Below, one piece after another: positions 46,198 through 64,000 of a stretch of DNA of 64,000 nucleotides; the first letter of the stretch is position 1, and each line of letters begins with the position of its first letter. The notes beneath the pieces are model-generated. The model saw only the letters and a list, made by a program, of their open reading frames with translations, did no database searches and was not told the DNA's origin. The stretch is from Seonamhaeicola aphaedonensis (GTDB taxonomy: Bacteria; Bacteroidota; Bacteroidia; Flavobacteriales; Flavobacteriaceae). The stretch spans positions 252,801 to 316,800 of the forward strand of contig NZ_QRDX01000005.1 in assembly GCF_003386195.1 (NCBI RefSeq), in the 5' to 3' direction. Made by a program: the position numbers and the translations under genes.

Positions 46198-47568
46198 ATG
46201 GCTCAAAAACCTAGCATACCTAAAGGAACACGTGATTTTACTCCAATTGAAGTAGCTAAACGAAATTATATTTTCAATACCATTCGTGGGGCTTTTGAAA
46301 CTTTTGGATTTCAACCCATTGAAACACCAAGTTTTGAAAACTCTGAAACCTTAATGGGTAAATATGGTGATGAAGGCGACCGCTTGATTTTTAAGATTTT
46401 GAATTCTGGAGATTATTTATCTAAAGCGAATACGGAGGCTTATAATACAAAGGACTCTAATAAACTTACCTCAAGTATTTCAGAAAAAGCCCTTCGTTAC
46501 GACCTCACAGTTCCTTTTGCGCGTTACGTGGTACAACACCAAAATGAGATTGAATTCCCATTTAAGCGTTACCAAATACAACCTGTTTGGAGGGCAGACA
46601 GACCTCAAAAGGGACGTTTTAGAGAGTTTTATCAATGTGATGCTGATGTAGTGGGTAGTGATTCCCTTTGGCAAGAGGTAGAGTTTATTCAATTATACGA
46701 TACAGTTTTTAAGGCCTTAAAACTTGAAGGCGTTACGATTAAAATTAATAATCGTAAGATCTTATCTGGAATTGCCGAAGTCATTGGTGCTTCCAATAAG
46801 CTAATTGATTTTACAGTTGCATTAGATAAACTTGATAAAATAGGAGAGGAGAAGGTAAAAGAAGAAATGCTTTCTAAAGGAATTTCTCAAGACGGAATCT
46901 CTAAATTACAGCCGTTGTTCTCATTATCTGGCTCTTTTGAATCTCAAATGGAGAGTTTAAGAACTATTTTAGCAACTTCCAAAGATGGTTTAAAAGGCAT
47001 TGAAGAACTAGCGTTTATAAATCTAGCCATTTCAGAATTAGGATTAACTACTGCTACCTTGCAGTTAGATGTTACCTTAGCTCGTGGTTTAAACTATTAT
47101 ACAGGTGCTATTTTTGAAGTATCAGCACCCCAAGAAGTAAAAATAGGTTCCATAGGAGGCGGTGGACGCTATGACGATTTAACTGGAATTTTTGGAATGA
47201 AAGATATGAGTGGCGTTGGTATTAGTTTTGGTTTAGATCGTATTTATCTGGTTTTAGAAGAACTGAATTTATTTCCTGAAACAGTAAATAAAAGTGTTGA
47301 GGTGCTATTTATCAATTTTGGAGATAAGGAGGCGCTTTTTAGTTTAAAAGCCATTAAGGTGTTACGTGAAGCTGGTATTAATGCCGAATTATATCCAGAA
47401 GCTGCTAAAATGAAAAAGCAAATGACACATGCCAATAGGCGTAATATTCCATTTGTTGTTTTAGTAGGCGAGGAGGAAATAACGTCTAGCACCTATACTT
47501 TAAAAGATATGACTTTAGGAGAGCAATATAAAGTCTCTTTACAAGATTTAATCTCAAAATTAAAATAA
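46198..47568 (+). CDS. hisS: Histidyl-tRNA synthetase
   Basis: A 456-residue class II synthetase. [13 protein letters not shown] at the start, [14 protein letters not shown] as motif 2 entry, [19 protein letters not shown] as motif 2, [15 protein letters not shown] as the HisA box, and GGGGRYDDL plus [12 protein letters not shown] as motif 3 are all present. The C-terminal 95 residues form the anticodon-binding domain. Complete. Confidence 0.97.
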
Positions 47569-47593: not shown

Positions 47594-47992
47594 ATAAGTA
47601 ATAGTAAAGATTTTTGGTAGATTTGGGATTCTACATTAACTAATTCAAACTAACTAAACAAACTAAAACTAACTACTATTGCTTTACTAAAACGCTCTTT
47701 AAGAATTTAGAATTGAATTTACTTTTAATTCCTTTGTTTATGGTTAATAGCTTAATAGCTATATCGATAGCTTGTCCGAATATAATAAAAAAATTAATAT
47801 AATCGACAAAAAGCTTAAAAAAATCGATGAAATACAATAAAAAAGAAAACCCTAGATGTATTTTGTGGCTCTTTTTATTTAAGTTTATTAGATTCTCCGA
47901 AGATCAATATATAGCGTGTTTCTAATCATTTTGTTCAATATCTAGGTGATATTTATCTTATAATAAAAACTGTTTTGATAGGTTTATAAAGC

Positions 47993-48023
47993 AAAAAGGT
48001 CTCGAATTAATCGAGGCCTTTTT
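47993..48023 (-). terminator. Terminator of the M14/fibronectin gene
   Basis: AAAAAGGTCTCG and CGAGGCCTTTTT form a stem with one G-T pair and flanking A/T runs, 24 bases beyond the stop codon on the minus strand. Confidence 0.8.
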
Positions 48024-48046
48024 CGTTGTATATTATTTTTTAAAGT

Positions 48047-51000
48047 TTATCTTTTTATAAACTTTTTTGATAAAGATTCTTTCTCATTATAAACATTAAT
48101 AAAGTAAAGTCCGCTTTCTAAATCATTAACAATAATGTCTTTAGTGATGCTTTCCCCATGTTTTACAATTTTACCTATAGTATTTATTATTCGGTATGAA
48201 TAGATAGATTCATTTTTGAATTTAACTCTTAATATACCTTCAACTGGGTTGGGGTATATAATAAAATCATCAACAGGTTTGGTGCTATCAGAAAGGTCAG
48301 ATTTACTGATACTAGTTTTTCCGGTTGAGTTATTTACTCTTCCTGTAATTATAACCTGATCTATATAAACATTATCATTTTTAGCATTTGCATTACATTG
48401 AATTCTAAACTGACCATTGTTTACTAAATTGTATTGGGAACTATCTAAGTTAAAAACAGCATTAAAGAATATATTATCATTAAAATCAGATCCGTTAATC
48501 CAGTTAACTACTGTGATCCATCCAGAGCCATCATTATATTGTAATAAAACACCATCACCAGATTCCATACCATTAGCATACAAATAAAAGTTAAATTCTA
48601 CTTGGTCAAATTGGGATAAATTAAATAAAGGAGAGCTAATAGATGATGATATCCCAGAATCTCTTAATTTAATTGATGACACACCTTCATAAGAAAAACT
48701 TCCAGAATAATAGAAAACATCTTTTCCGCCTTCAGTCCATCCATCAAATCCGGTTTCAAAATATCCTTCGTGTAAAATAGTGTCACTTGGAGGGCAAGTA
48801 GGGCATACAGAACCGCCACAATCAATTCCTGATTCGTCTCCATTTTGAATGCCGTCATTACAAGTTGGTGCAGCTAAAGTGGTAGGTGAAATAGAATTGC
48901 TTAGCTCAGAACTATTACCAGCGGCATCTCTTGCGATTACATAGAATGTATAATTGGTGCTTTCTGACAAACTAGTAACTTGGTAATTAGTGCCTGAAAC
49001 ATTTATTAAGAAAGTGGAATCTTGATAAATATCATATCCTGTAACCCCAACATTATCTGTTGAAGCATTCCAACTTAAATCAATACTGTTATCCGTAATA
49101 TTAGAAGCTGCTAGCTCTGTTGGAATAGTAGGTGGATTGGTATCTATAAATTCATCTGTGGTAACATTTACAGAATTACTTTGTACAGAACTATTGCCGG
49201 CTGCGTCTCTTGCAATTACATAAAATGAATAGGAGGTTGAAGAGCTCAAGCTAGTAACGGCATAATTTGTGGAAGCCGTATTGCCAATAAAACTTCCATC
49301 TTGATAAACATCATACCCAGTAACACCCACATTATCTGTTGGTGCTGTCCAAGATAAATCTGTTGAGTTAAAAGTAGTATTACTCGCAACTAAATTTGCA
49401 GGTGCACTTGGAGCCTCAGTATCTGGTGGGGCTTGGGTAGTAATATTTGCTGTATTACTTTGTGCAGATGAATTACCTGCTGCGTCTTTTGCAATAACGT
49501 AAAACGAATAAGGTGTGCTTGCACTTAATCCATTAACTTGGTAAGATGTGCCAGAGACATTGATTAAAAAATTGCTATCTTGATAGATGTCGTATCCTGT
49601 AACGCCTACATTATCTGTAGAGGCATTCCATGATATATCCGTTGTAGAATCTGTTGTGTTATTCGCAGCTAAACCAGTTGGTGCCGAAGGAGGTGTTACA
49701 TCTGGTCCTGTACTTTCAATTGTAATCGTGTAATCTTCTACTTCTCCGTCACTAAAAGATTCACAAGCGGTTGGTGTTCCGTTGTATTTCATGCTTACTC
49801 GCATTCTGAAAGAAGTTTCGGCAGCAGATTGCGGTACTGTGAAACTAGTGCTTATTTGACTACTTTTAGTAGGGCTCTGAGACAGTATTTGCTCACCCGA
49901 ATCATTAAAGTCGCCATCATAATTATAATCTATCCAAACACCATAGCCTTCGCGTCTGGAACGGCCGGTCCATTCTGGAGTTATCGTAACCGTATATTGG
50001 GAGCCTTTTTCAACGATTGTTGAAATATTAGTAAAGTCTGAATAAAGCGTTGCTCCAGATGAATTATCAATAGTATTCAACTGAACTCTCCCGATATATT
50101 CGCTGCTATTGCTTCCAGAAGTAGAGACACAATAATTAATGCTGTCTGTTGTGAATGTTATTGGTGTACTATATGATGACTCCAATGTATCTGGGCAAAC
50201 ACTATTTACCTGAACTTCGTATTGCGTTGAAGGTGTTAAGTTTGATAATACCACAGAATTACTAGTTGTGTTTTGTGTTATCCATGTCGAAGTTCCACTT
50301 TCTCTATATTGGTAATTAAAAGTGGCGTTTTGTACTGTATCCCAGCTTATTGTTGCTGACGATGGAGCTATGTTTGAAGCTGCTAACCCGGTAGGTGGTT
50401 GTAAACAAGGAGCTGGCAATACCTCAAAAGATTGTTCGACGTCAGTAGCAGGGTTGTAGGTGGTGTTTCCTGATTGACTTGCCCTAACGGTTACGAAACC
50501 AGTTGTACCATTAAGCGTAATGGTATTTCCAGATACCGAAGCAGGTCCTGATACGATGGAGAAGCTAACAGGCAACCCAGAGGAAGCCGTTGCATTCACT
50601 TGGAACGGGGCATCGGTTGTAAACTTATCACTAATAGAGTCGAAGGTAATAGTTTGTGGGATATTAGTTGAATTGGTTATGATTCTAAAGTCATCGAATA
50701 CAAAGCCATCGAAAGTCGTTGTGTAGCTGTCCTGATTGTTTGTAGAATCAGTATTGAAGCTAAACCTAAGAAAAACGTTAGCTTGGTTAAAGAATGAACT
50801 ATTTTCTGAGGCAGATATAACGATTTCCTCCATAACCCATTTGTCTTGTGTATCGCCATCATAAAGCTGTTCACCATCAGGTTGGAAGTTATTGTTTGTA
50901 GAGCTTTTACCCGAATAGGTATTGTTTTCGTTAGGCGCACCTGGTTTGGTATAGGTGCCACAGAGCGGTGTCCAAGTAGATCCGTTGGTAGAAGCTTCAA

Positions 51001-53008
51001 TTTGTACATAATCAAAACTACGTTCTAGATCCCACTTGGCGTTATACTGAATAACAGTTTGTATCAGTCCATTAGTACTGATGGCATTATTTAGTTGTAG
51101 TGTTTTGCTTTCATTGTTGTTATATGCACCAGAAGGAGAGTCTGTAATAGCCACTGTTCCAGAAAAGGCGTCATTAGTAGTTCCCCAAGATCCACCAGAT
51201 GCTGTCCAGTTTGCAATGCCATTGGTTTCTTCATTATCTTCAAAAAGTATGGTTGGCGTATAATATTTTATTACGTTGGCCTCGTATATGATACCGTCGT
51301 CATTGCTCAACGCAACTTTAAACTCAATAGCATCATTGGGTTGTATGCTTCCGTCTAGTGTAAAAGGAACAGATACGTTACGTTGCTCAAGAGTAATCAT
51401 TCCAGACTGAGCAGGAGGATTTGTCAATGAGATGATATTAGAGGATATAGGAGTGAGAGTCAGTGTAAAATCACTATCGGTTTGACCTAGATACTCAATG
51501 CCAAAGTTGAAGTTTCCGTTCAAAGACGTTACGTTAGAAGATGTTAAATCAATAATTTTAGCATATTTACCACTAAAGTAAGCCGCTAGGAAATTGGCTC
51601 TCATAGCTCTGCGAGCTATATCATCAATAAGAAGCGGGTCAGGCCAAAAGCCACTACCAGTAGATCCGGCTTCAGAGCCACCTCCATTCTCAGGAGTCCA
51701 AGCCATGGTATCTTTTCCAGCACCAGGTCCTCCTGTAGAACCCGCTACAGCAGGTCCCATCATCCAGTCGTTCATATTTCCGCTGTTCAGAGCACTAATC
51801 TGTGTACTGGGTCCATAGGCATACCGGTTAAAATGAGTCATGTCATGGTTATACTTGGCAAATTCATCTTCACGTCTATCCACCCCTGCAAGATCTAGCG
51901 TGGCAGGATCTACTCCCGCATAACCATGTAGCATAGCATTTTTAAAGGAGTGGTGGTTAAGTACTAATTTAAAGTCGTGATCTAGAAAGAAATCTCTAAC
52001 AATTTGTGATTCATTTTCAGAAAAGAACGAAGGTCCTCTATAGATCTCGCTACATACATTAGTTGATGATCCACCGTTACCCCAATAGTACCCAAAGTTT
52101 CTATTAAGGTCTACACCTTCTGATGTTGTACCACAACTACCTCCATAAATATTTCTGTTTTTACGTTGTAGTCCGCCACCATTAGGAGCTATAGCTTCAT
52201 TATATGCAAGACCATCAGAGTTTACAATAGGAATAAAATAGAGTTCTTGGTTGTTAACCAAGCTAGTAATAGCAGGATCAGATCCGTAGTTTTCTAGAAT
52301 ATACCACATGTAGTACATTAGGTTCATAAGGCTGGACAGCTCTCTGGAGTGTGTCATTCCAGTATAGAGTGTTTCAGGCTCATTAGGTTCATCGATATCG
52401 GGATTATCAGATATACGAACATAGTATGTGGTTCTTCCTTCTAACGTAGTTTGTTGGGTAGGAGAGGCATCTGTCTTTACGGATATGATGTTAGGATATA
52501 GAGATCGCATAAGGTCGAGTTCTGCCAGAGCCTCAGAGACAGTAAAACAGCCTCCCATACTACCAAGTTTGAAATTGGTAGGTGTTGGCCAATTGATTTC
52601 ATCACAGCCATTATATTGTCCTATATTATCGAAAAGAATATTAGAGACACTACTTTTACCAAAACCGGCTTTTGCATTTAGACTTGTTTTTTGCGATTCA
52701 AGTTCTTTAATAGCCGTTGGGAGATTTTTCGTAGCTCTATCGGCATAAAACTTAGTAAGATCATTAATAAGCACATTATAGGTAATACCCTTATTTTTTA
52801 AATTTTTTAGTTCATATTCAGAGAGTTCTAACTGTAGCCCTTGACTATTGATCAAGGCTCCACAAGATAAATCCATACCTAAATCACTTAATGTATGTAT
52901 GACATCATGGGTAGGGGAATTAATTATAATGCGTTTGTAATTAGGTTGTTGTGCATATACAATACCTAAGCAAAGTATTGAAAAAATAAGGGTCAGATTT
53001 CTTTTCAT
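48047..53008 (-). CDS. Secreted M14 zinc carboxypeptidase with fibronectin III and GEVED domains, T9SS cargo
   Basis: A 1,653-residue exported protein. Signal peptide about 1-19. The M14 catalytic domain, about 150-480, keeps zinc ligands His220 and Glu223 (THSRELSS) and His353 (NHHSF), substrate-site NRN at 302-304 (GVDLNRNFG), and the likely catalytic Glu440 in TPENGG. Beyond it come a beta-sandwich (to about 800), a fibronectin III domain (about 868-960), a GEVED domain (963-1096), three more fibronectin III domains (1103-1375), a CNDGIQNGDESG cysteine motif, a jelly-roll (1408-1560), and a type-A T9SS sorting domain (1582-1653). Residues about 100-863 are encoded by DNA almost identical to the gene at 59797. 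Fate: processed and exposed on the cell surface or released. Confidence 0.92.
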   Translation of the reverse strand: MKRNLTLIFSILCLGIVYAQQPNYKRIIINSPTHDVIHTLSDLGMDLSCGALINSQGLQLELSEYELKNLKNKGITYNVLINDLTKFYADRATKNLPTAIKELESQKTSLNAKAGFGKSSVSNILFDNIGQYNGCDEINWPTPTNFKLGSMGGCFTVSEALAELDLMRSLYPNIISVKTDASPTQQTTLEGRTTYYVRISDNPDIDEPNEPETLYTGMTHSRELSSLMNLMYYMWYILENYGSDPAITSLVNNQELYFIPIVNSDGLAYNEAIAPNGGGLQRKNRNIYGGSCGTTSEGVDLNRNFGYYWGNGGSSTNVCSEIYRGPSFFSENESQIVRDFFLDHDFKLVLNHHSFKNAMLHGYAGVDPATLDLAGVDRREDEFAKYNHDMTHFNRYAYGPSTQISALNSGNMNDWMMGPAVAGSTGGPGAGKDTMAWTPENGGGSEAGSTGSGFWPDPLLIDDIARRAMRANFLAAYFSGKYAKIIDLTSSNVTSLNGNFNFGIEYLGQTDSDFTLTLTPISSNIISLTNPPAQSGMITLEQRNVSVPFTLDGSIQPNDAIEFKVALSNDDGIIYEANVIKYYTPTILFEDNEETNGIANWTASGGSWGTTNDAFSGTVAITDSPSGAYNNNESKTLQLNNAISTNGLIQTVIQYNAKWDLERSFDYVQIEASTNGSTWTPLCGTYTKPGAPNENNTYSGKSSTNNNFQPDGEQLYDGDTQDKWVMEEIVISASENSSFFNQANVFLRFSFNTDSTNNQDSYTTTFDGFVFDDFRIITNSTNIPQTITFDSISDKFTTDAPFQVNATASSGLPVSFSIVSGPASVSGNTITLNGTTGFVTVRASQSGNTTYNPATDVEQSFEVLPAPCLQPPTGLAASNIAPSSATISWDTVQNATFNYQYRESGTSTWITQNTTSNSVVLSNLTPSTQYEVQVNSVCPDTLESSYSTPITFTTDSINYCVSTSGSNSSEYIGRVQLNTIDNSSGATLYSDFTNISTIVEKGSQYTVTITPEWTGRSRREGYGVWIDYNYDGDFNDSGEQILSQSPTKSSQISTSFTVPQSAAETSFRMRVSMKYNGTPTACESFSDGEVEDYTITIESTGPDVTPPSAPTGLAANNTTDSTTDISWNASTDNVGVTGYDIYQDSNFLINVSGTSYQVNGLSASTPYSFYVIAKDAAGNSSAQSNTANITTQAPPDTEAPSAPANLVASNTTFNSTDLSWTAPTDNVGVTGYDVYQDGSFIGNTASTNYAVTSLSSSTSYSFYVIARDAAGNSSVQSNSVNVTTDEFIDTNPPTIPTELAASNITDNSIDLSWNASTDNVGVTGYDIYQDSTFLINVSGTNYQVTSLSESTNYTFYVIARDAAGNSSELSNSISPTTLAAPTCNDGIQNGDESGIDCGGSVCPTCPPSDTILHEGYFETGFDGWTEGGKDVFYYSGSFSYEGVSSIKLRDSGISSSISSPLFNLSQFDQVEFNFYLYANGMESGDGVLLQYNDGSGWITVVNWINGSDFNDNIFFNAVFNLDSSQYNLVNNGQFRIQCNANAKNDNVYIDQVIITGRVNNSTGKTSISKSDLSDSTKPVDDFIIYPNPVEGILRVKFKNESIYSYRIINTIGKIVKHGESITKDIIVNDLESGLYFINVYNEKESLSKKFIKR
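50421..52711. repeat. 2.29-kb direct repeat, copy A
   Basis: This segment recurs at 61706-63996, offset 11,285 bases, same orientation. Only one difference was noticed, A at 50477 versus G at 61762, and it is silent. The left end is sharp: downstream of it the two genes share nothing. At the right end the match stops at 52711/63996, four bases from the window edge. Confidence 0.93.
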
Positions 53009-53141
53009 ATTAACAAGTTAAGTTAGAGTTATGTAAATTTAGATTTTTATAGTGCCGAAATATTTTTGTTATATTTTTTTTCTAACAATTCATTGTTAAT
53101 AAATTGCTAATTAATATGTTAGTTTATTTTGAATACAAGAA

Positions 53142-53168
53142 AGAGGCTACTATTACTAGTTTGCCTCT
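53142..53168 (-). terminator. Possible terminator of the HYDIN/LamG gene
   Basis: AGAGGC and GCCTCT face each other around an ACTAGT-containing loop, with TTCTTGT after the arm on the minus strand. It lies about 70 bases after the stop. The stem is short. Confidence 0.4.
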
Positions 53169-53238
53169 CTCATATTCAGATAAAGTTAGGGTATATTTTG
53201 GGATTGATTAATTAACCCAGATCAAACTTGACTAAAAA

Positions 53239-56200
53239 TTAACGTACCAAGACTTTTTTAGATAATGTTGCATCTATCATATTTACTTTAATAATATATG
53301 TTCCAGAATTGATATTTCTAGTTTTAAATTCTTGAAAACTGTCTTGTTTTATATTGTTAAATTGATAGACAGATTGACCAATAATATTATAAACCTCAAT
53401 AGACTTGACCTGTTTTAATTTAGGGTTGTGAAGTATAAAGCTTTGCTTTTCATTAGAAAAATAGGTATTGAGCACTTTATCTTCAATATCTTCGGTACTT
53501 AATGAGGCTTCTGCTTTATTTTCAAATGTAATTTCAAATCTATTTAAGTATTCTCCCGCTGTTAGGAAAACTTCATAATTATCCTCTTTTAAATTTTGAT
53601 AGATATCTAGAGTTTTATCATAAACAAAAATGTTAGTATCGGCGTTTATATTTTCAAGAGTATCAATTCTTATTACAGACACACCATCAACATCTGTTTT
53701 AATACCAAGTGGTAGTATGCGATTATTGTTAAAATGATCTACCGCTTGAATTATTAATTTATTATCATTTAATTTCCAATACATGTCCTCTAAGTTGTCA
53801 TCGTTCATTATAGCATCAAATCCAATATCAATGCCACTTGAAGCCCTGTTGTCAACACCAACCAATAATTGACGGTGATAACCTTTTGGAGAGTCAAACG
53901 CCAACCTGATTTTTTCTCTAGTATCAGTTGTACTTGATTTAGTTTCGGATAATTTTCCTTTAACATTAGTTGATTTCAAGAAACTTGAAGATCCACCTGA
54001 CTCTTTTTGGAATACCCGTTGACTATTTTTAAATAGGATGTTACCGCCATCTGGTATTACCGTGCCCGATGCACCTGTATCTCTAGCAACAACAAAGAAG
54101 CCTTGTCCGACTGGAATATAACGCTTCGGGATTTTAGTTCCGGTTTCACCAGTTGCACTAATACGTGTATCATTGTTCACGGCTGGTGCACCCCCCATTA
54201 AAGTGTACACGGCATATCCACCAGCATATTCTCTTAAAACATGGGTGCTACGTGCGAAATGATCCCAGAAGTATAAGGCGCCGTTTATAACGTTTACAGA
54301 ATTTCTTCCAATTTTGCCATTAATGGTTTCTGTAGTTTTAATATTGTCTTGAATAAATTCATCAGCATCTAAAGCAGATGGATACGGATTACCTACCAGA
54401 TAATCATTGCCAGATGCTATTGTAAGGGTTATATCACCATTATTTGGTTTTCCATTAAAAACATAGTTCTGTTCTTGCGAAATGAGTCCGCCTGTATTTT
54501 CAACACCTTTCATAGTAAATCCTTCACCAGCATTTATGCTTCCAGAACTTCTCATATGTTGCCATTCCGAATACGTGTCTCCAATTCTATTGGCATATTT
54601 CCATATCCAGTAGTCTGCTATGGTAGCTCCCGTTGTATTAGCTACTCCAGGAGAACCGTTATATCCAGAACCGGAAAAGGTTATTGACAATGGGTTAGAA
54701 GGAACTAATCCGTCTCTTAAGATTTCAGCAACAGTATATGAGTTATTATTAGTAGTTGTATTAGACCTACCTATAGGAGAAGACCAATAGTTATATGTAT
54801 ATAGGTCCTTTGTGCCTTGTTGATCTCTTTCCAGTGTTCCAGTACTTGTTACATCTAAATCACTATCCTCTGTCTGAATTAATTGTGATTCTCCTTCCAA
54901 GTCAATTGCACCATCTACTTTTAGGTAGTGGGTTACAGTCAATCCATTACCAGTCCCCAAAGAATTATCTCCATTGAGTGTCAGTTCATTTGAATCTATA
55001 AATAATCCAAGAACTGATCGGTTACCATTGTTGCCAGAAGGTAAAGAAGAGTTGTCAACGGTTATATTATGAGCTATCCTTACAATATTCCAATCTACCG
55101 TTACCGAATTATCGGCAAGAGCAGCTGCACCGGGTATGGTTTGAACATCGCCATTTACCCACGAACTGTTTGATGTCCAATCGCCATCTTGAGTTGAAAT
55201 GTATGGTAATGGTGCTGTTTGCCAGTCAACGGTTTTCAGATTTTTCAAGGCGCCTTGATTTCCGTTGCCAGATTCGTCTTTAGTATTGGTATAAGTATAT
55301 GTAGACATTGGATAGTATCCCGCCAAGCTAGACCAAGGTATAGTGGATATTTCGTCTTTAGTTGGACTTACTGAACGGCTAATAAAATACCCTGGGCCAA
55401 CATTAAGCGAATTATCTGTGATTTCTTGATTCATTATATAGCGTAACTGGTCCACGGTTAATGCGGTATTCCAAACCCTTACTTCGTCAATATTTCCATG
55501 GAAAAAAGCTTCTGGGGTTAATTTGGCAGCAGCAGCAATAAAGAATGATTGCGAAGTGTTAACTGGAGGAGATAATGTCTCCGTTTTTTCTAATACACCA
55601 TCTATATATAAATTCGCTGTGGTACCATTGTAAATGACAGCCACTTGGTGCCATTCGTCTTCAGGTATTACAACATCTGAGACAATAGTTTGAGTTCCAC
55701 CATTTATCCAAGACATTTCAACATGTCCTGTTGCGTTTATCTTTAGGTCATACCCTTCAGAGTAAGCGGCATTTCTTTTAGATACTATGGATTTATCTAA
55801 AGAGTTTGATCCTCTTTTAATCCAAGCCGAAACCGTAAAACTCGTTGGATTTAAATCTAAATGATCTTCTACGTCTACATAATGACCATTGGCTGGATCA
55901 AAATAAATAGATCTATCAAAAGTTTCTTCAGGTGCCCAGCCAAAAGTTATATACTCGGTATTATCAAAATCGTATTCTGCGTACAAATATCCACCAGTCT
56001 CAGTCATTACACGATAGTCAGCAGTTGGATCAAAAATACCAGTCGAAGAAATAAACATTAAGTAACGCCCATCTGGTGGAGCAGCGGTTCTTACGGCACT
56101 CACAGGGATAGACACTTCTACAGCAGGAATATCACCGCCATTGCCGTTTTCTACAACCTTCCATATTCTTGGAATAGCTGTAAAAGATACATTCGTTGTT

Positions 56201-59200
56201 GGTTTAGCTCCTATAATATCTTCACTCATATCAACGGTTACATTTATTGGAGCTCCGTTAATATCAGCATTATTATTACCCCACATTAAAAATTGTCTAT
56301 CTGCTAATGCTGTGGTATTGGCTATATTCTCTTTATTTGTTGCGTAAGTACTTGTTAATGCCATTGTAAGAAATCCGGATGTTGGCCCATCTACATCGGA
56401 CTCATCATTCTGACTTCTTGACTGTCTCTGGTCTAATAATGAGGCATCATCACGACCTATTCCAGCAATGTCAAAATTATGACCACTATTTGCAGTGGTA
56501 TCCCATATTACATTACCTTGAGAATCGATATAATCAACATCATTCTGTCTATATGTGGTAGCTGTACTGGAGGAACTTTGCAATGTTACGCCATACTTAA
56601 CCCCCAAGTAACTTTGAATTTTTTGTTGGTTTATTGCAGAATTTGGAGAAGTATATGATATAATTTCAGTTAACATACCATTCATTTGTGAAGTAGTACG
56701 TCCTGCCAGACCACTTCGCCCTGTACCTACTAAAAAGGGTGTATTATTAAATTCTTTAAAATTTAAATCGGCTCCATTTCCAGCTGTACCTGTGGCATTG
56801 TCCACACGTTTACCATTTTTATATATTTCGGTAGATGTTCTGGTAGCATTCGATTTAACATTGACAATCAAGACATGGTTCTGATAAGTTTCTGTATTAG
56901 TTGTGTAGGCTCTACCATATGAGTTATCATTAGGTGCTGATGAACCATTAGGGAACGAATTGAGATTGTGAGATAAAATTTCGTCTGTAAATCTGGCCGA
57001 AGTACTTCCCATACCCAGACCTGTTGGGTCTTCATGGAAATTATCATTACTATATCTTCCCCCAACAGCAAACTGTCTACCTGGGCTAAATGATCCGGTT
57101 TGTGTATCTACAATATCATCACTTCTAAACACGGCAAAATAATCGGTTGCATAAAAACCACCTTTACCATTCATATATTGAATGTTATTATTGTCAAAAT
57201 CAAGAACAGGATTATAGTTCATGTTTCTACTTGCATTATCTCTATAAATAGGTGCTATGGTTGATGCGGCAGAGGCATCCTCTTTATCGAGAGTGGTGTC
57301 ATAAGCTTGGTCTTCCCAACTTGTTAAGGCGACACCGTCGGTTGCAGCAATACCTTCATTGGCTTTTAACCACAATCTTAAATTAGATGTTATATTTGCT
57401 GGGGCAATGCTGGAATCGCTTAGAGCGGTACTTGGGTCTGCCTCAACTCTAAAATTATCAAAAGCAACACCATCATCTGTTCCCGATCCATTCGAACTGA
57501 ATTCAATTCTAAACCTCACATTACTTTGATTAGCAAATGTAGCATCAGATAATGTTAAGGAAGCATTTATAAATTTGTTGTGTGTAAAGGATGTATTTGT
57601 TGGGTGACTATTATTACTCCAGCCATCACTTCCAAGGGCATTTACATTTCCTTCGTACCAATTTGTTCCAGAACCACTGGCACCCAGTAGAGTATAGGCG
57701 CCTCCGGCAACGGAGTATAGAATGCGTACACCATCATTTCCACTTTCTGTTTTATATTTTATATCTAAGCTCACTCTTAGGTTATCCAATCCTGTAAAAT
57801 CTAGTTGGGGACTTTCAACAACTATATTAACATTACTTAAGTAATTATCGTAAGTACTACAACGCCAAAATCCGCCTTCGGCTAATTCAATGGCTGTACC
57901 TGGAAATGCATTGGTCCATATCCATGAATCACCGGTTGATGTTACTGCAGTCCATCCACCATCATTTATGTCGAAGTTTTCGTAGTAAGCTGTATACTCT
58001 GGTGGAGCAGCGGTTCCTTCACCTTGAACTGTGAACGTATATGGGTTTTCATCGCTATCATCATTAACTATGGTTATGTTACCTGTAATAATACCTACTG
58101 CAGATGGTGTGAATGTTATAGTGAACGTCGTGTTTCCTCCAGATGCCACAGGCGATGATGGGCTTACTGTAATAGCAAAGTCTGTATTATCGCTGGTTAT
58201 AGAACTAATATTTAAAGCTAAAGAACCATTATTTTCAATGGTATACGTAGTACTTATGGGCGTAAGCGCATCGGTAGCTCCAAATAATGTTTGATTAAGT
58301 GAAGCAGGGCTATTGGTGCTACCATCATTAATCGGATTGTTGGAATCGTCAAAAACATCGATTTCTGGTGATGGTGGGGTTCCCGTACCTTGTATATCAA
58401 ACACATAAGGTTGTTCACTACATACAGAACTGTTATTTACTATGGTAACCGTCGCTGTTCTTAAGCCTAGGGCACTTGGCATAAAGGTTATTGTAAAGGT
58501 TCCAAAACTATCTTTATTTATAGTTGTAATGGCACTTGTAACTGTAAAATCGGCAGCATGAGCACCTGATAAGGTGATGCTGGTAATACTTAATTGGTTC
58601 GTATTCTGACTTCCTCCTCCAGTATAAGTGTTTTGAATTTCAAAAGTGTTAATTATTGAAAAACCAACATTAGTACTTCCAAAGTCTGTATTATCTGAAG
58701 TAATAGGGGTAGTGTCATCATCAGGGATGTCAACTGTATTACCTCTAACATTAATGTCTTGTAAACCAGTAGTCGACGCTGTGCCTTCACCTTGAATATC
58801 GAAGGTGTACGAACTTTCATCACTGTCATCATTTGCAACAGTCACCGTAGCGTTTTTAATACCACAAGTTGAGGGATCAAACGTAATATCGAATGTTGTA
58901 TTTCCAGATGCTGCTATGGGTGTTGATGGGTTTGCAGTAATGCTAAAATCTGCTGCATCTGTACCACTTATAGTTATGTAAGTTGGTCCTGTTCCTGTTA
59001 GACTTAAATCGGCACTTCCTGTATTTAATACGGTAAAGGTGTTTACAACAGTGCCTCCTGATATATCAATTTGTCCAAAATCGGTATCGTCTGCTACATC
59101 AGGTGTAATATCTCCACTAGAAATCGACGTACCATTACCTTGAATGTCTATTTCGGGCGCGGGCGCGGTTCCTGTACCTTGAATAGTAAATGTATAGGGA

Positions 59201-59610
59201 TCTTCATCTGGATCATCACTATTAATTGTTACAGTAGCAGATATAAGCCCTGTAACACTAGGTGAAAAAGTTATTGTAAAAGTATCTGATTTTTCCCTAT
59301 CAACTTCAGATACGAAGCTCGTTACTGTAAAGTCAGTGGTATTGGAAACACTAACACTGCTTACAGTCAATCTGTTGTTTGCTGGATTTCCAGAGCCCGT
59401 AGCTACGTTTTGTATTTCGAATGTATGTACAATGCTACCACCTGTACCAATACTTCCAAAATCTGTGTTATCAGCTATTTCTGGTATTGTATCTCCATTA
59501 AGAATATCTAAGGAATTACCCCTTACATTTATGTCTTGATTTTGCGAATTCCCCTTTAAGCAAAACACACATAACAACATGCATAGTATTACATAAGTAA
59601 TTTTTTTCAT
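53239..59610 (-). CDS. Giant surface protein with HYDIN-type repeats and LamG domain, T9SS cargo
   Basis: A 2,123-residue exported protein. Signal peptide about 1-23. Four ASPM/SPD-2/Hydin-type (choice-of-anchor D) repeats cover about 25-533, each with a DFG...NTFEIQN...FTITFSP...YTFTIQGTG plan. A jelly-roll follows (540-723, GVAFDNFRVE), then a LamG-like domain (741-1000) and a GVKYGVTL...GIGRDD segment typical of flavobacterial surface proteins. A second LamG lectin-like domain lies at about 1232-1390 (TSFTVSAWIKRGS, DEVRVWNTALT). The last 75 residues are a type-A T9SS sorting domain ending SKKVLVR. No catalytic site is seen; adhesion or glycan binding is the likely role. It stands between the two near-identical protease genes. 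Confidence 0.88.
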   Translation of the reverse strand: MKKITYVILCMLLCVFCLKGNSQNQDINVRGNSLDILNGDTIPEIADNTDFGSIGTGGSIVHTFEIQNVATGSGNPANNRLTVSSVSVSNTTDFTVTSFVSEVDREKSDTFTITFSPSVTGLISATVTINSDDPDEDPYTFTIQGTGTAPAPEIDIQGNGTSISSGDITPDVADDTDFGQIDISGGTVVNTFTVLNTGSADLSLTGTGPTYITISGTDAADFSITANPSTPIAASGNTTFDITFDPSTCGIKNATVTVANDDSDESSYTFDIQGEGTASTTGLQDINVRGNTVDIPDDDTTPITSDNTDFGSTNVGFSIINTFEIQNTYTGGGSQNTNQLSITSITLSGAHAADFTVTSAITTINKDSFGTFTITFMPSALGLRTATVTIVNNSSVCSEQPYVFDIQGTGTPPSPEIDVFDDSNNPINDGSTNSPASLNQTLFGATDALTPISTTYTIENNGSLALNISSITSDNTDFAITVSPSSPVASGGNTTFTITFTPSAVGIITGNITIVNDDSDENPYTFTVQGEGTAAPPEYTAYYENFDINDGGWTAVTSTGDSWIWTNAFPGTAIELAEGGFWRCSTYDNYLSNVNIVVESPQLDFTGLDNLRVSLDIKYKTESGNDGVRILYSVAGGAYTLLGASGSGTNWYEGNVNALGSDGWSNNSHPTNTSFTHNKFINASLTLSDATFANQSNVRFRIEFSSNGSGTDDGVAFDNFRVEADPSTALSDSSIAPANITSNLRLWLKANEGIAATDGVALTSWEDQAYDTTLDKEDASAASTIAPIYRDNASRNMNYNPVLDFDNNNIQYMNGKGGFYATDYFAVFRSDDIVDTQTGSFSPGRQFAVGGRYSNDNFHEDPTGLGMGSTSARFTDEILSHNLNSFPNGSSAPNDNSYGRAYTTNTETYQNHVLIVNVKSNATRTSTEIYKNGKRVDNATGTAGNGADLNFKEFNNTPFLVGTGRSGLAGRTTSQMNGMLTEIISYTSPNSAINQQKIQSYLGVKYGVTLQSSSSTATTYRQNDVDYIDSQGNVIWDTTANSGHNFDIAGIGRDDASLLDQRQSRSQNDESDVDGPTSGFLTMALTSTYATNKENIANTTALADRQFLMWGNNNADINGAPINVTVDMSEDIIGAKPTTNVSFTAIPRIWKVVENGNGGDIPAVEVSIPVSAVRTAAPPDGRYLMFISSTGIFDPTADYRVMTETGGYLYAEYDFDNTEYITFGWAPEETFDRSIYFDPANGHYVDVEDHLDLNPTSFTVSAWIKRGSNSLDKSIVSKRNAAYSEGYDLKINATGHVEMSWINGGTQTIVSDVVIPEDEWHQVAVIYNGTTANLYIDGVLEKTETLSPPVNTSQSFFIAAAAKLTPEAFFHGNIDEVRVWNTALTVDQLRYIMNQEITDNSLNVGPGYFISRSVSPTKDEISTIPWSSLAGYYPMSTYTYTNTKDESGNGNQGALKNLKTVDWQTAPLPYISTQDGDWTSNSSWVNGDVQTIPGAAALADNSVTVDWNIVRIAHNITVDNSSLPSGNNGNRSVLGLFIDSNELTLNGDNSLGTGNGLTVTHYLKVDGAIDLEGESQLIQTEDSDLDVTSTGTLERDQQGTKDLYTYNYWSSPIGRSNTTTNNNSYTVAEILRDGLVPSNPLSITFSGSGYNGSPGVANTTGATIADYWIWKYANRIGDTYSEWQHMRSSGSINAGEGFTMKGVENTGGLISQEQNYVFNGKPNNGDITLTIASGNDYLVGNPYPSALDADEFIQDNIKTTETINGKIGRNSVNVINGALYFWDHFARSTHVLREYAGGYAVYTLMGGAPAVNNDTRISATGETGTKIPKRYIPVGQGFFVVARDTGASGTVIPDGGNILFKNSQRVFQKESGGSSSFLKSTNVKGKLSETKSSTTDTREKIRLAFDSPKGYHRQLLVGVDNRASSGIDIGFDAIMNDDNLEDMYWKLNDNKLIIQAVDHFNNNRILPLGIKTDVDGVSVIRIDTLENINADTNIFVYDKTLDIYQNLKEDNYEVFLTAGEYLNRFEITFENKAEASLSTEDIEDKVLNTYFSNEKQSFILHNPKLKQVKSIEVYNIIGQSVYQFNNIKQDSFQEFKTRNINSGTYIIKVNMIDATLSKKVLVR

Positions 59611-59749
59611 GAGAGACTAAGTTTTAGTTTTTGGGACTAATTAAGTTTTATAAAAACCTACGGTACAAACATACCACTTAACTCCATGAAATACAAAAAA
59701 AATCGATGAACGGTTATTTGTGTTTTTAAATCATTGAATAACAGTAATT

Positions 59750-59789
59750 TAAAATACTAAGTAAACTAATCAATTTACTTAGTATTTTA
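59750..59789 (-). terminator. Terminator of the M14/MAM/repeat gene
   Basis: TAAAATACTAAGTAAA and TTTACTTAGTATTTTA form a perfect 16-base stem with an eight-base loop, immediately after the stop codon at 59797. Confidence 0.75.
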
Positions 59790-59796
59790 AAGGGAT

Positions 59797-62700
59797 TTAA
59801 TATTTAATTAACTGCTTTACTACACTTTTACCAAATTCTAAACTTGTTAATTTCAAGAAATATGCACCTTCAGACAAACTTTCTAGATCAAATATTACAA
59901 TTTTAGAATTAATACTATTCCTAGCAGAACTGTATATTAATCTACCATTAACATCAAATAACTTAACTTGAAACTTCTTGTTATTTAGATTTAAAGGTAA
60001 GTTTATACTAATTTGATTTCTGAAAGGGTTTGGATTTATATTCAAGTTATTTAATGTAAAGTTTTCAGAACTTAATGTTTGATCGAATCCATCACAGTCT
60101 TCATCTATACCATTATTTGGTATTTCTATTCCATTGGGATTTAAGGTGTCATCGTTATCATCACAATCATCAGCAGTAGGAGCTACGAGCGAATGATTGG
60201 CCGATGGCTGCTCACAGGCGGTCACTGAGGATACACTTCCGAAGAAGGTATCGTTATCATTATCCACACCGATGTACCAAGTTTGGCCTGGGAACTCATT
60301 GTCGTCGTTGTCGTCACAATCGTCTGCAGTAGGCGCTACTAAGCTATATCCTGCAGGCTGCTCACAGGCGGTCACGGAATTGACACTTCCAAAGAAGGTA
60401 TCGTTATCGTTATCCACACCGATGTACCATGTTTGTCCTGGAAACTCGTTGGCATCGTTATCATCACAGTCGTCTGCAGTAGGCGCTACTAAGCTATACC
60501 CAACAGGCTGCTCACAGGCGGTCACGGAATTGACACTTCCGAAGAAGGTATCGTTATCGTTATCCACCCCAATGTACCAAGTTTGTCCCGGGAACTCATT
60601 GGCATCGTTATCATCACAGTCGTCTGCAGTAGGCGCTACTAAGCTATATCCTGCAGGCTGCTCACAGGCGGTCACGGAATTGACACTTCCGAAGAAGGTA
60701 TCGTTATCATTATCCACACCGATGTACCATGTTTGACCAGGGAACTCATTGGCATCGTTATCATCACAGTCGTCTACAGTAGGCGCTACTAAGCTATATC
60801 CTGCAGGCTGCTCACAGGCGGTCACTGAGGATACACTTCCGAAGAAGGTATCGTTATCATTATCCACACCGATGTACCATGTTTGACCAGGGAACTCGTT
60901 GGCATCGTTATCATCACAGTCGTCTGCAGTAGGCGCTACTAAGCTATACCCAACAGGCTGCTCACAGGCGGTCACTGAGGATACACTTCCGAAGAAGGTA
61001 TCGTTATCGTTATCCACCCCAATGTACCAAGTTTGTCCTGGGAACTCATTGGCATCGTTATCATCACAGTCGGTATTGTCTAAAACATAACCAGAAGGTT
61101 GAGTAATGGCATCTTGAAATACCAGAGGATTTCCGAAACCATCAGAGTCAGAATCCTGATACCATGTTTGGTTAGTGAGAGTTACTGTTAAACCAATATT
61201 ATCGATTGCCATGTCACTTCTTGGTTGCCCTGAAGGCACTGTGCCTATAAATCTTAATTTTATATATTTATTTATGTATGAGTCTAGACTAATAGTATTG
61301 GTAAGCCATGATGTTCCTTGATCACCAGACAATGTCCAAAGTTGAGACCAACTAGCACCATTATTATCTGAAATTTCTAAAGTTAAATCTCCCATATTGC
61401 TACCAGACATATGATATGAATAAGAAAAGGAAGCACTGGAAGTTGCGTTTAAATTGAAACAAGGACTAATAAGTATTAGATTTCCTGTTCCGTCATTTGA
61501 TTCTGCATATAAATAATAAAAACCTTCATCTGCACTAGATGGACCTGTACTACCTGTTGAAGTAGAGCCAGAATTAATATTCCAATCAATATTGTCAGAT
61601 ACTTCTTGAGTCCAATCACCTAATCCTCCAGTTCCTGAACCTTCAAAGCTTTCAGAATAAGGAAAAGTGTCTACCAATGTGCCTGTACATGGAGGTTGGA
61701 ATATCACCTCAAAAGATTGTTCGACGTCAGTAGCAGGGTTGTAGGTGGTGTTTCCTGATTGGCTTGCCCTAACGGTTACGAAACCAGTTGTACCATTAAG
61801 CGTAATGGTATTTCCAGATACCGAAGCAGGTCCTGATACGATGGAGAAGCTAACAGGCAACCCAGAGGAAGCCGTTGCATTCACTTGGAACGGGGCATCG
61901 GTTGTAAACTTATCACTAATAGAGTCGAAGGTAATAGTTTGTGGGATATTAGTTGAATTGGTTATGATTCTAAAGTCATCGAATACAAAGCCATCGAAAG
62001 TCGTTGTGTAGCTGTCCTGATTGTTTGTAGAATCAGTATTGAAGCTAAACCTAAGAAAAACGTTAGCTTGGTTAAAGAATGAACTATTTTCTGAGGCAGA
62101 TATAACGATTTCCTCCATAACCCATTTGTCTTGTGTATCGCCATCATAAAGCTGTTCACCATCAGGTTGGAAGTTATTGTTTGTAGAGCTTTTACCCGAA
62201 TAGGTATTGTTTTCGTTAGGCGCACCTGGTTTGGTATAGGTGCCACAGAGCGGTGTCCAAGTAGATCCGTTGGTAGAAGCTTCAATTTGTACATAATCAA
62301 AACTACGTTCTAGATCCCACTTGGCGTTATACTGAATAACAGTTTGTATCAGTCCATTAGTACTGATGGCATTATTTAGTTGTAGTGTTTTGCTTTCATT
62401 GTTGTTATATGCACCAGAAGGAGAGTCTGTAATAGCCACTGTTCCAGAAAAGGCGTCATTAGTAGTTCCCCAAGATCCACCAGATGCTGTCCAGTTTGCA
62501 ATGCCATTGGTTTCTTCATTATCTTCAAAAAGTATGGTTGGCGTATAATATTTTATTACGTTGGCCTCGTATATGATACCGTCGTCATTGCTCAACGCAA
62601 CTTTAAACTCAATAGCATCATTGGGTTGTATGCTTCCGTCTAGTGTAAAAGGAACAGATACGTTACGTTGCTCAAGAGTAATCATTCCAGACTGAGCAGG

Positions 62701-64000
62701 AGGATTTGTCAATGAGATGATATTAGAGGATATAGGAGTGAGAGTCAGTGTAAAATCACTATCGGTTTGACCTAGATACTCAATGCCAAAGTTGAAGTTT
62801 CCGTTCAAAGACGTTACGTTAGAAGATGTTAAATCAATAATTTTAGCATATTTACCACTAAAGTAAGCCGCTAGGAAATTGGCTCTCATAGCTCTGCGAG
62901 CTATATCATCAATAAGAAGCGGGTCAGGCCAAAAGCCACTACCAGTAGATCCGGCTTCAGAGCCACCTCCATTCTCAGGAGTCCAAGCCATGGTATCTTT
63001 TCCAGCACCAGGTCCTCCTGTAGAACCCGCTACAGCAGGTCCCATCATCCAGTCGTTCATATTTCCGCTGTTCAGAGCACTAATCTGTGTACTGGGTCCA
63101 TAGGCATACCGGTTAAAATGAGTCATGTCATGGTTATACTTGGCAAATTCATCTTCACGTCTATCCACCCCTGCAAGATCTAGCGTGGCAGGATCTACTC
63201 CCGCATAACCATGTAGCATAGCATTTTTAAAGGAGTGGTGGTTAAGTACTAATTTAAAGTCGTGATCTAGAAAGAAATCTCTAACAATTTGTGATTCATT
63301 TTCAGAAAAGAACGAAGGTCCTCTATAGATCTCGCTACATACATTAGTTGATGATCCACCGTTACCCCAATAGTACCCAAAGTTTCTATTAAGGTCTACA
63401 CCTTCTGATGTTGTACCACAACTACCTCCATAAATATTTCTGTTTTTACGTTGTAGTCCGCCACCATTAGGAGCTATAGCTTCATTATATGCAAGACCAT
63501 CAGAGTTTACAATAGGAATAAAATAGAGTTCTTGGTTGTTAACCAAGCTAGTAATAGCAGGATCAGATCCGTAGTTTTCTAGAATATACCACATGTAGTA
63601 CATTAGGTTCATAAGGCTGGACAGCTCTCTGGAGTGTGTCATTCCAGTATAGAGTGTTTCAGGCTCATTAGGTTCATCGATATCGGGATTATCAGATATA
63701 CGAACATAGTATGTGGTTCTTCCTTCTAACGTAGTTTGTTGGGTAGGAGAGGCATCTGTCTTTACGGATATGATGTTAGGATATAGAGATCGCATAAGGT
63801 CGAGTTCTGCCAGAGCCTCAGAGACAGTAAAACAGCCTCCCATACTACCAAGTTTGAAATTGGTAGGTGTTGGCCAATTGATTTCATCACAGCCATTATA
63901 TTGTCCTATATTATCGAAAAGAATATTAGAGACACTACTTTTACCAAAACCGGCTTTTGCATTTAGACTTGTTTTTTGCGATTCAAGTTCTTTAATGTCC
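59797..64000 (-). CDS. Secreted M14 zinc carboxypeptidase with MAM-like domain and metal-binding-type repeats, T9SS cargo (5' end outside window)
   Basis: 1,400 residues are visible; by comparison with the gene at 48047 about 97 N-terminal residues lie beyond base 64000. The catalytic domain is the same as that gene's, with the HSRE, GVDLNRNFG, NHHSF and TPENGG sites intact. At 61706 the sequence changes abruptly: a MAM-like domain (61180-61690, ending DMAIDNIGL) follows, then seven units of the MopE-type motif (DCDDNDANEFPGQ, WYIGVDNDNDTFFG), six of them nearly identical. The end is a T9SS sorting domain (about 59797-60050, NINPNPFRNQI to KQLIKY). The Asp-rich loops suggest calcium or copper binding; that is family inference. 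Confidence 0.9.
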   Translation of the reverse strand, partial: DIKELESQKTSLNAKAGFGKSSVSNILFDNIGQYNGCDEINWPTPTNFKLGSMGGCFTVSEALAELDLMRSLYPNIISVKTDASPTQQTTLEGRTTYYVRISDNPDIDEPNEPETLYTGMTHSRELSSLMNLMYYMWYILENYGSDPAITSLVNNQELYFIPIVNSDGLAYNEAIAPNGGGLQRKNRNIYGGSCGTTSEGVDLNRNFGYYWGNGGSSTNVCSEIYRGPSFFSENESQIVRDFFLDHDFKLVLNHHSFKNAMLHGYAGVDPATLDLAGVDRREDEFAKYNHDMTHFNRYAYGPSTQISALNSGNMNDWMMGPAVAGSTGGPGAGKDTMAWTPENGGGSEAGSTGSGFWPDPLLIDDIARRAMRANFLAAYFSGKYAKIIDLTSSNVTSLNGNFNFGIEYLGQTDSDFTLTLTPISSNIISLTNPPAQSGMITLEQRNVSVPFTLDGSIQPNDAIEFKVALSNDDGIIYEANVIKYYTPTILFEDNEETNGIANWTASGGSWGTTNDAFSGTVAITDSPSGAYNNNESKTLQLNNAISTNGLIQTVIQYNAKWDLERSFDYVQIEASTNGSTWTPLCGTYTKPGAPNENNTYSGKSSTNNNFQPDGEQLYDGDTQDKWVMEEIVISASENSSFFNQANVFLRFSFNTDSTNNQDSYTTTFDGFVFDDFRIITNSTNIPQTITFDSISDKFTTDAPFQVNATASSGLPVSFSIVSGPASVSGNTITLNGTTGFVTVRASQSGNTTYNPATDVEQSFEVIFQPPCTGTLVDTFPYSESFEGSGTGGLGDWTQEVSDNIDWNINSGSTSTGSTGPSSADEGFYYLYAESNDGTGNLILISPCFNLNATSSASFSYSYHMSGSNMGDLTLEISDNNGASWSQLWTLSGDQGTSWLTNTISLDSYINKYIKLRFIGTVPSGQPRSDMAIDNIGLTVTLTNQTWYQDSDSDGFGNPLVFQDAITQPSGYVLDNTDCDDNDANEFPGQTWYIGVDNDNDTFFGSVSSVTACEQPVGYSLVAPTADDCDDNDANEFPGQTWYIGVDNDNDTFFGSVSSVTACEQPAGYSLVAPTVDDCDDNDANEFPGQTWYIGVDNDNDTFFGSVNSVTACEQPAGYSLVAPTADDCDDNDANEFPGQTWYIGVDNDNDTFFGSVNSVTACEQPVGYSLVAPTADDCDDNDANEFPGQTWYIGVDNDNDTFFGSVNSVTACEQPAGYSLVAPTADDCDDNDDNEFPGQTWYIGVDNDNDTFFGSVSSVTACEQPSANHSLVAPTADDCDDNDDTLNPNGIEIPNNGIDEDCDGFDQTLSSENFTLNNLNINPNPFRNQISINLPLNLNNKKFQVKLFDVNGRLIYSSARNSINSKIVIFDLESLSEGAYFLKLTSLEFGKSVVKQLIKY
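60155..61072. repeat. 150-bp tandem repeat array, six near-identical units
   Basis: Landmark AGGCGCTACT recurs at 60331, 60481, 60631, 60781 and 60931, exactly 150 bases apart, and a sixth, diverged unit starts at 60178 with three extra bases. Each unit encodes 50 residues. Differences are few: A/V and S/N swaps and scattered silent changes. A seventh, older unit (WYQDSDSDGFG) precedes the array in the protein. Confidence 0.93.
61706..63996. repeat. 2.29-kb direct repeat, copy B
   Basis: Partner of 50421-52711. It encodes the same pre-domain, M14 catalytic domain and beta-sandwich. The encoded residues are identical throughout the comparable part. Confidence 0.93.

Follow-up and report, generated by a model that had tools for sequence, protein, structure and literature searches.

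Apparent concerted evolution confined to the catalytic core of two neighbouring M14 carboxypeptidase genes in Seonamhaeicola aphaedonensis and related Flavobacteriaceae

Two neighbouring genes with one core

The window analyzed in this study is a stretch of 64,000 nucleotides from Seonamhaeicola aphaedonensis (positions 252801-316800 of contig NZ_QRDX01000005.1, within a 41-contig draft assembly). Two of its genes on the minus strand, gene 1 (48047..53008) and gene 3 (59797..63999), flank a middle gene (53239..59610, minus strand), and both are predicted to encode secreted M14 carboxypeptidases. Comparison with related genomes makes it highly probable that the two genes have undergone lasting concerted evolution through recurrent gene conversion, confined to the catalytic core, while their ends stayed gene-specific. 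Gene conversion is strongly supported by the conflict between the cores, which cluster by genome, and the sorting tails, which cluster by gene, by borders of the shared block that differ among species, and by apparently opposite copying directions.

An earlier note on this DNA had reported that the segments 50421..52711 and 61706..63996 (both minus strand) match at an offset of 11,285 with one silent difference, and base-by-base alignment confirmed this. The match was 2,291 bp long with exactly one mismatch, 50477 A vs 61762 G at a third codon position, leaving exact runs of 56 bp and 2,234 bp. Because the core proteins of the two genes were 100% identical over 750 aligned codons, the A/G difference is silent. 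Core copy 1 encodes residues about 100-862 of gene 1, while copy 2 lies in gene 3 and its upstream end abuts an assembly gap. This gap of 95 N occupies contig positions 316801-316895, starting at the first base past the window, and the 99 bases leading up to it are found again behind it, with 1 mismatch, an overlap that resembles two contig ends meeting at a repeat. The exact 2,234-bp interior may therefore be a single collapsed consensus placed twice, and given the gap and its overlapping flanks the base-level identity of the interior is unproven from the assembly. Thus the near-identity at DNA level described in the note stood for the sequence as assembled, but not as proof of an identical interior.

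The upstream end of copy 2 at 63996 is the edge of the assembly gap and no biological border. Homology with gene 3 continues past the gap, with 7 differences in 228 bp at window positions 52712-52939, and then stops sharply. This stretch (52712..52939, minus strand) is the remainder of the homogenised block in gene 1, which from the sequence comparison appears to span 50421 to about 52939; the signal-peptide regions upstream of it differ. Gene 3 has 1,400 codons inside the window, and its start codon, with a signal-peptide-like start of its own, lies beyond the gap. This separate start and the continuing homology with 7 differences indicate that the two genes are distinct.

Gene 1, recognized from its open reading frame and from Pfam and NCBIfam matches, encodes 1,653 amino acids with a signal-peptide-like start, a propeptide-like region, the M14 core, an FN3/GEVED tail and a sorting domain of the type IX secretion system (T9SS). 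The two cores matched PF00246, the M14 zinc carboxypeptidase profile, with 161.1 and 162.0 bits (cut-off 21.6). In a 28-row core alignment H220, E223, H352/H353, R303 and E440 were invariant, which we take to be the M14 set of zinc ligands and catalytic glutamate. The closest solved relative of the core was carboxypeptidase T (PDB 3qnv and 1obr; E 2.9e-30, residues 56-319 of the repeat-encoded protein). The carboxypeptidase T chains of 323-326 residues match the catalytic domain only, the beta domains being unmatched and the T9SS tail outside the query. An AlphaFold model of gene 1 residues 1-862 (mean pLDDT 70.9) was used for rough domain edges only; on this modest model the block would reach from the last part of the propeptide-like region across the catalytic domain and the beta domains that follow. 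The segment had been described as covering the pre-domain, the catalytic domain and a beta-sandwich; the exact part starts at about residue 100, so that most of the pre-domain falls in the 97% part.

Downstream of the core the two genes carry different tails. That of gene 1 (48047..50420, minus strand) contains 4 FN3 domains, GEVED and Por_Secre_tail and is orthologous in four species, and that of gene 3 (59797..61705, minus strand) contains MAM, MopE-type repeats and Por_Secre_tail. The middle gene encodes 2,123 amino acids with choice-of-anchor D, LamG and T9SS sorting domains. All three proteins end in a TIGR04183 type A sorting domain (27.9-45.8 bits, cut-off 23) and thus carry a putative T9SS cargo sorting signal, with export predicted.

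Divergence of cores and ends among relatives

Within the genus, core-protein matches at E 1e-30 were found in three of seven genomes, namely G000 (the window genome), G002 (Seonamhaeicola sediminis W255) and G004 (48% identity), and at E 1e-60 in 66 of 299 family genomes; 18 loci were found in an organism-named collection. A second draw of 397 genomes at E 1e-255 gave 9 matches and no new twin-pair carrier, a cut-off that misses fragmentary carriers like G040 (Hyunsoonleella aestuarii KCTC 23449). When relatives were compared for copy number, as the earlier note had proposed, both genes were found at the same locus in four species, with the twin arrangement hisS / gene 1 / middle gene / gene 3 in the window genome, S. 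sediminis, H. aestuarii and the uncultured Algibacter 2-1163 (G265). The last two fall in one genus group. hisS (46198..47568, plus strand in the window) serves as the syntenic anchor adjoining gene 1 in G000, G002, G265, G040 and G304. In a tree of four neighbour genes, which we take from their sequences to be hisS, priA, a LytTR-type regulator and rplI, G000 grouped with G002 and G265 with G040, H. aquatilis standing apart (midpoint root only). The note had expected recombination between the copies to delete the middle gene; no such deletion was seen, the gene being present in all four species having the pair.

In Algibacter 2-1163 a single contig carries both copies at a distance of 10,290 bp; they share an exact run of 2,259 bp, and neither the copies nor the sequence between them contains any N. 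The S. sediminis and H. aestuarii contigs break off within the block, which would be expected of reads unable to distinguish the copies. The arrangement in these two species was pieced together from three contigs each: one joins hisS to the gene 1 tail, another runs from the gene 1 start through the middle gene to the gene 3 tail, and the third holds the start of gene 3 together with the following gene.

Core DNA was 97.7-99.9% identical within genomes compared to about 76-93% between them (four species, with partial sequence in two), and separately assembled core parts were 97.3-99.1% identical with real differences. The proportion of synonymous differences (pS) between the two cores was 0.004 in the window genome, where the interior is uncertain. 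Within-genome synonymous divergence (dS) was 0.02 over the full core and 0.04 over its C half in the gap-free Algibacter, 0.02 in H. aestuarii (337 separately assembled codons) and 0.06 in S. sediminis (151 separately assembled codons). Between species, core dS was 0.25-0.32 for H. aestuarii and Algibacter, 1.15-1.67 for the two Seonamhaeicola species and 1.26 to saturated between the two genera, and the middle gene gave 0.45-2.1. Nonsynonymous divergence (dN) of the core between species was 0.03-0.10. Over the 89-codon stretch preceding the core, which holds the borders, within-genome dS was 0.09 in G000, 0.24 in G002 and 1.81 in G265.

The core tree, built from the C-terminal half of the core with three complete pairs (part of S. 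sediminis gene 1 is missing), united each genome's pair with support of 100/100 for S. aphaedonensis, 100/99 for Algibacter and 99/97 for H. aestuarii, the one of the three in which the copies were assembled separately. The approximately unbiased (AU) test rejected a clade of the three gene 1 cores (p 4.6e-6) and a grouping of the Algibacter and H. aestuarii gene 1 cores (p 9.3e-4). The sorting-tail tree (last 100 residues) separated gene 1 tails from gene 3 tails at 100/100, and pairing by genome was rejected there by the AU test for S. aphaedonensis (p 1.7e-25) and for Algibacter (p 7.5e-4). At the other end, the first 28 residues, a short stretch, scored best with the same gene of another species in all 8 sequences of the four species. 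Over the first 250 post-core residues, the four tails of gene 1 were 85-96% alike and three of the gene 3 tails 57-72%.

The N-side border of the block, taken as the end of the last densely mismatched stretch, was found at alignment nucleotide 74 in S. aphaedonensis, 121 in H. aestuarii, 146 in S. sediminis and 286 in Algibacter, so that each of the four lineages has its own N-side border. Diagnostic sites near these borders were used to examine the direction of copying. In S. aphaedonensis gene 1, nucleotides 90-224 were of the S. sediminis gene 3 type at 20 of 29 sites (5 gene 1-like, 4 neither), compared to 15 of 42 in nucleotides 0-89. In H. aestuarii gene 3, nucleotides 135-314 were of the Algibacter gene 1 type at 48 of 53 sites (2 gene 3-like, 3 neither), compared to 21 of 60 before nucleotide 135. 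The same-gene controls were gene 3-like at 56 of 71 sites for S. aphaedonensis gene 3 and gene 1-like at 101 of 113 for H. aestuarii gene 1. These counts suggest copying from gene 3 to gene 1 in the S. aphaedonensis lineage and from gene 1 to gene 3 in that of H. aestuarii.

A different state of the locus was found in H. aquatilis SJ7. There it adjoins hisS; a gene called B stands where gene 1 would be and a gene called A where gene 3 would be, with an additional gene between the two, and the A and B sorting tails agree with these positional identities (B = gene 1, A = gene 3). The A and B cores were 59.1% identical in protein (64.1% in a DNA-match control). The same A and B cores (59.1%) occur on two contigs in Flavobacteriaceae 4-544, and the B core type of both genomes is the type present in both twin genes. 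As H. aquatilis keeps the locus with cores 59% alike, the pair appears to be old. The earlier note had counted relatives with two long-diverged copies against its reading; they exist, but they show an unconverted old pair and so fit conversion.

Among 21 genomes with two full cores, only S. aphaedonensis (100%) and Algibacter (99.7%) had near-identical ones, the other 19 lying at 52.1-88.2% amino acid identity. This comparison used 54 core sequences, and its 21 genomes were 17 of the 24 with at least two matches plus 4 from another search. Left out were H. aestuarii (fragments, analysed apart) and G079, G084, G096, G162, G212 and G289 (second or both copies of a distant kind). A control on the hisS side examined five genus members over about 20 kb (G004 over 31 kb) and H. 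aquatilis over 37 kb, counting matches of at least 250 bp at more than 800 bp distance, the 8 longest per genome. Among the matches listed, those above 82% sit within one gene's tandem repeats, and the best between-gene match was 81.3% over 758 bp (G005). Homogenisation seems peculiar to this pair and not general to the family or the whole island. A simple identity threshold for conversion was also considered and is weakened by the pairs of G050 and G270, which at 84-88% protein identity have closer orthologs (90.6-98.3%). The GC content of third codon positions was 32.5 in the core vs 22.7 in the tail in S. aphaedonensis and 26.7 vs 19.8 in Algibacter; both H. aquatilis genes showed the reverse, and for this reason GC-biased conversion is not claimed.

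Alternative explanations and proposed mechanism

The two cores could owe their likeness to an assembly artefact, in which the second core is a collapsed repeat used again, the true copies being missing or far more divergent. The 95-N gap with its 99-bp overlapping flanks at the end of copy 2 fits such an artefact, as do the position of the sole mismatch, the 57th base from the unique tail, and the S. sediminis and H. aestuarii contigs that likewise end in the block. However, gene 3 has its own start and tail, parts of the copies that were assembled separately show real differences at 97.3-99.1% identity, Algibacter has both copies without N in or between them, and collapse itself would require near-identical reads. 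We therefore regard an artefact as improbable, and one would plausibly affect only some base differences in the interior. The earlier note had left the choice between recent copying and gene conversion. If the core had been duplicated recently and independently in each lineage, the very low within-genome dS would follow, but this reading is rejected as very unlikely, because both genes occupy the same hisS-side locus, with the same middle gene, flanks and orthologous sorting tails, in four species; of the two proposals, conversion stood.

Strong purifying selection alone, maintaining the likeness of two old copies, would agree with the low core dN between species, but synonymous sites are nearly identical within genomes and near saturation between genera, which selection on the protein cannot produce, and we give this explanation almost no credence. 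The direct repeats inside surface-type genes and the apparent two-way exchange could also suggest a programmed cassette exchange that diversifies surface proteins, as in antigenic or phase variation. Against this, the exchanged part is the uniform core and not the variable ends, a genome search of the draft assembly for a third or silent core copy gave only the two copies and the gap overlap, and no inverted repeats of at least 60 nt (seed 20) were detected in 40000-64000. Such a programme is about as unlikely as recent duplication.

Several observations weigh against recurrent, core-limited conversion or complicate it. The interior of the block is collapsed or unresolved in S. aphaedonensis, S. 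sediminis and H. aestuarii; the S. aphaedonensis pair in the core tree lies in this uncertain interior and hence is not independent support. The Algibacter sequence is gap-free, yet a short-read assembler can reuse one repeat consensus, and the arrangement in S. sediminis and H. aestuarii rests on three contigs each. The ranges of the direction test were picked once the borders had been seen, and the reciprocal counts were mixed, with 18 gene 1-like and 13 gene 3-like of 40 sites for S. sediminis gene 1 and 22 and 24, respectively, of 59 sites for Algibacter gene 3. The signal region of S. aphaedonensis gene 1 scores 55 with S. sediminis gene 3 vs 46 with its gene 1. Over its first 250 residues the tail of H. 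aestuarii gene 3 looks like a gene 1 tail (50-54%) rather than a gene 3 tail, beginning with gene 1-type FN3 sequence; this fits a moved border, yet is an exception to the grouping by gene. The gene 1 tails of Algibacter and H. aestuarii are 96.5% identical with a dS of 0.09, compared to 0.25-0.32 for their cores and 0.45 for their middle genes, and this closeness may hint at transfer between lineages as well. In H. aquatilis the core is followed by MAM in B and by FN3 in A; the post-core domain thus ignores gene position, suggesting that tail domains shuffle separately too.

Recurrent conversion of the core would be carried out by ordinary homologous recombination, probably of the RecA type, between direct repeats 11.3 kb apart. 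Its resolution would involve no crossover, which spares the middle gene, and conversion would probably run in either direction. An early event may have overwritten the A-type core of gene 3 with the B type of gene 1 before the four species split, with conversion continuing since; this order is suggested by H. aquatilis, where the gene 1 ortholog, identified by position and sorting tail, has the twin core type and the gene 3 ortholog another. An early idea that gene 3, with its MAM tail, was the ancestral core donor to gene 1 was dropped, as H. aquatilis B corresponds to gene 1 both in position and in the sorting-tail tree. Conversion would have become self-sustaining as soon as little difference was left between the cores, and selection for a single common enzyme activity may add to it. 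More broadly, we see an even chance that this is a self-sustaining core-exchange pair predating the Seonamhaeicola-Hyunsoonleella split, in which one cassette is rewritten both ways while the targeting and binding ends remain independent, and which began with one core overwriting its diverged neighbour; H. aquatilis and 4-544 would still show the earlier A/B state.

If true, this would be a case in Bacteroidota of secreted enzymes undergoing long-lasting concerted evolution limited to a domain, with two evolutionary regimes in one gene, the core evolving jointly with its neighbour and the ends not. The converted state in four species and the unconverted state in two would offer a natural experiment on the onset and stop of conversion between paralogs. 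The locus also serves as a warning that short-read assemblies can break or blur at such genes. Many public M14 relatives are labelled 'partial', as though contigs often end in these genes.

Known systems and other features of the locus

Segment-limited concerted evolution is already known. In Helicobacter pylori homA/homB and babA/babB (segment 3), the accessible part of the source describes one segment grouping by strain and another by gene, attributed to intragenomic gene conversion (PMC2795765). Those genes likewise encode paralogous surface proteins with incongruent segments, but they are outer-membrane proteins compared among strains of one species, whereas here it is a predicted enzyme core between gene-specific ends that is homogenised, in different species and genera. 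Porphyromonas gingivalis belongs to the same phylum as the window organism. Its RgpA and RgpB are described, in the accessible text, as having nearly identical catalytic domains and differing propeptides, with adhesin domains in RgpA and not in RgpB (PMC5266723). They resemble the present pair as two surface proteases with near-identical catalytic domains, but are cysteine proteases studied in one species. Gene conversion is raised in the accessible text of that paper for other surface genes and generally, not for rgpA/rgpB.

In tufA/tufB and other concertedly evolving prokaryotic genes, paralogs are kept alike at synonymous and other sites over the long term by recurrent conversion, and 22 of 26 such genes encode proteins in stable complexes, according to the accessible part of the source (PMC6053082). 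As far as that part goes, these cases treat whole genes, while homogenisation here is limited to the middle. The main text of that paper contains the word 'protease' once, in a reference, and 'bacteroidetes', 'flavobacter' and 'peptidase' not at all. A search for literature on gene conversion of secreted catalytic domains in flavobacteria found none, and a version involving an enzyme core and lasting across genera is new as far as the literature searched shows.

Other direct exact 40-mer repeats were absent from the window apart from a tandem array at about 60206-61038, and an Rfam scan of the window gave 0 matches at the gathering score. A promoter scan of 47600-60000 gave 48 sites (49.2 expected) and 11 terminators were found (6.6 expected); neither result was used. 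In the gene 3 tail, window positions 60056-61105 carry 150-bp tandem repeats, and the MopE-type metal-binding motif matches the tail once. The S. sediminis counterpart has an array with 84-bp spacing, indicating that the linker repeat differs between species.

Upstream of gene 3, at contig positions about 318309-329687, lies an open frame of 3,793 codons that runs through some N and has internal repeats of up to 99% identity. The sequence beyond the window that holds this frame and the gene 3 start contains 285 N, of which the 95-N gap accounts for all but 190. Downstream of hisS, a variable run of large minus-strand genes was observed in G000, G001 and G003-G006, and a relative of the C-terminal part of the middle gene was found beside hisS in all five other genus members examined.

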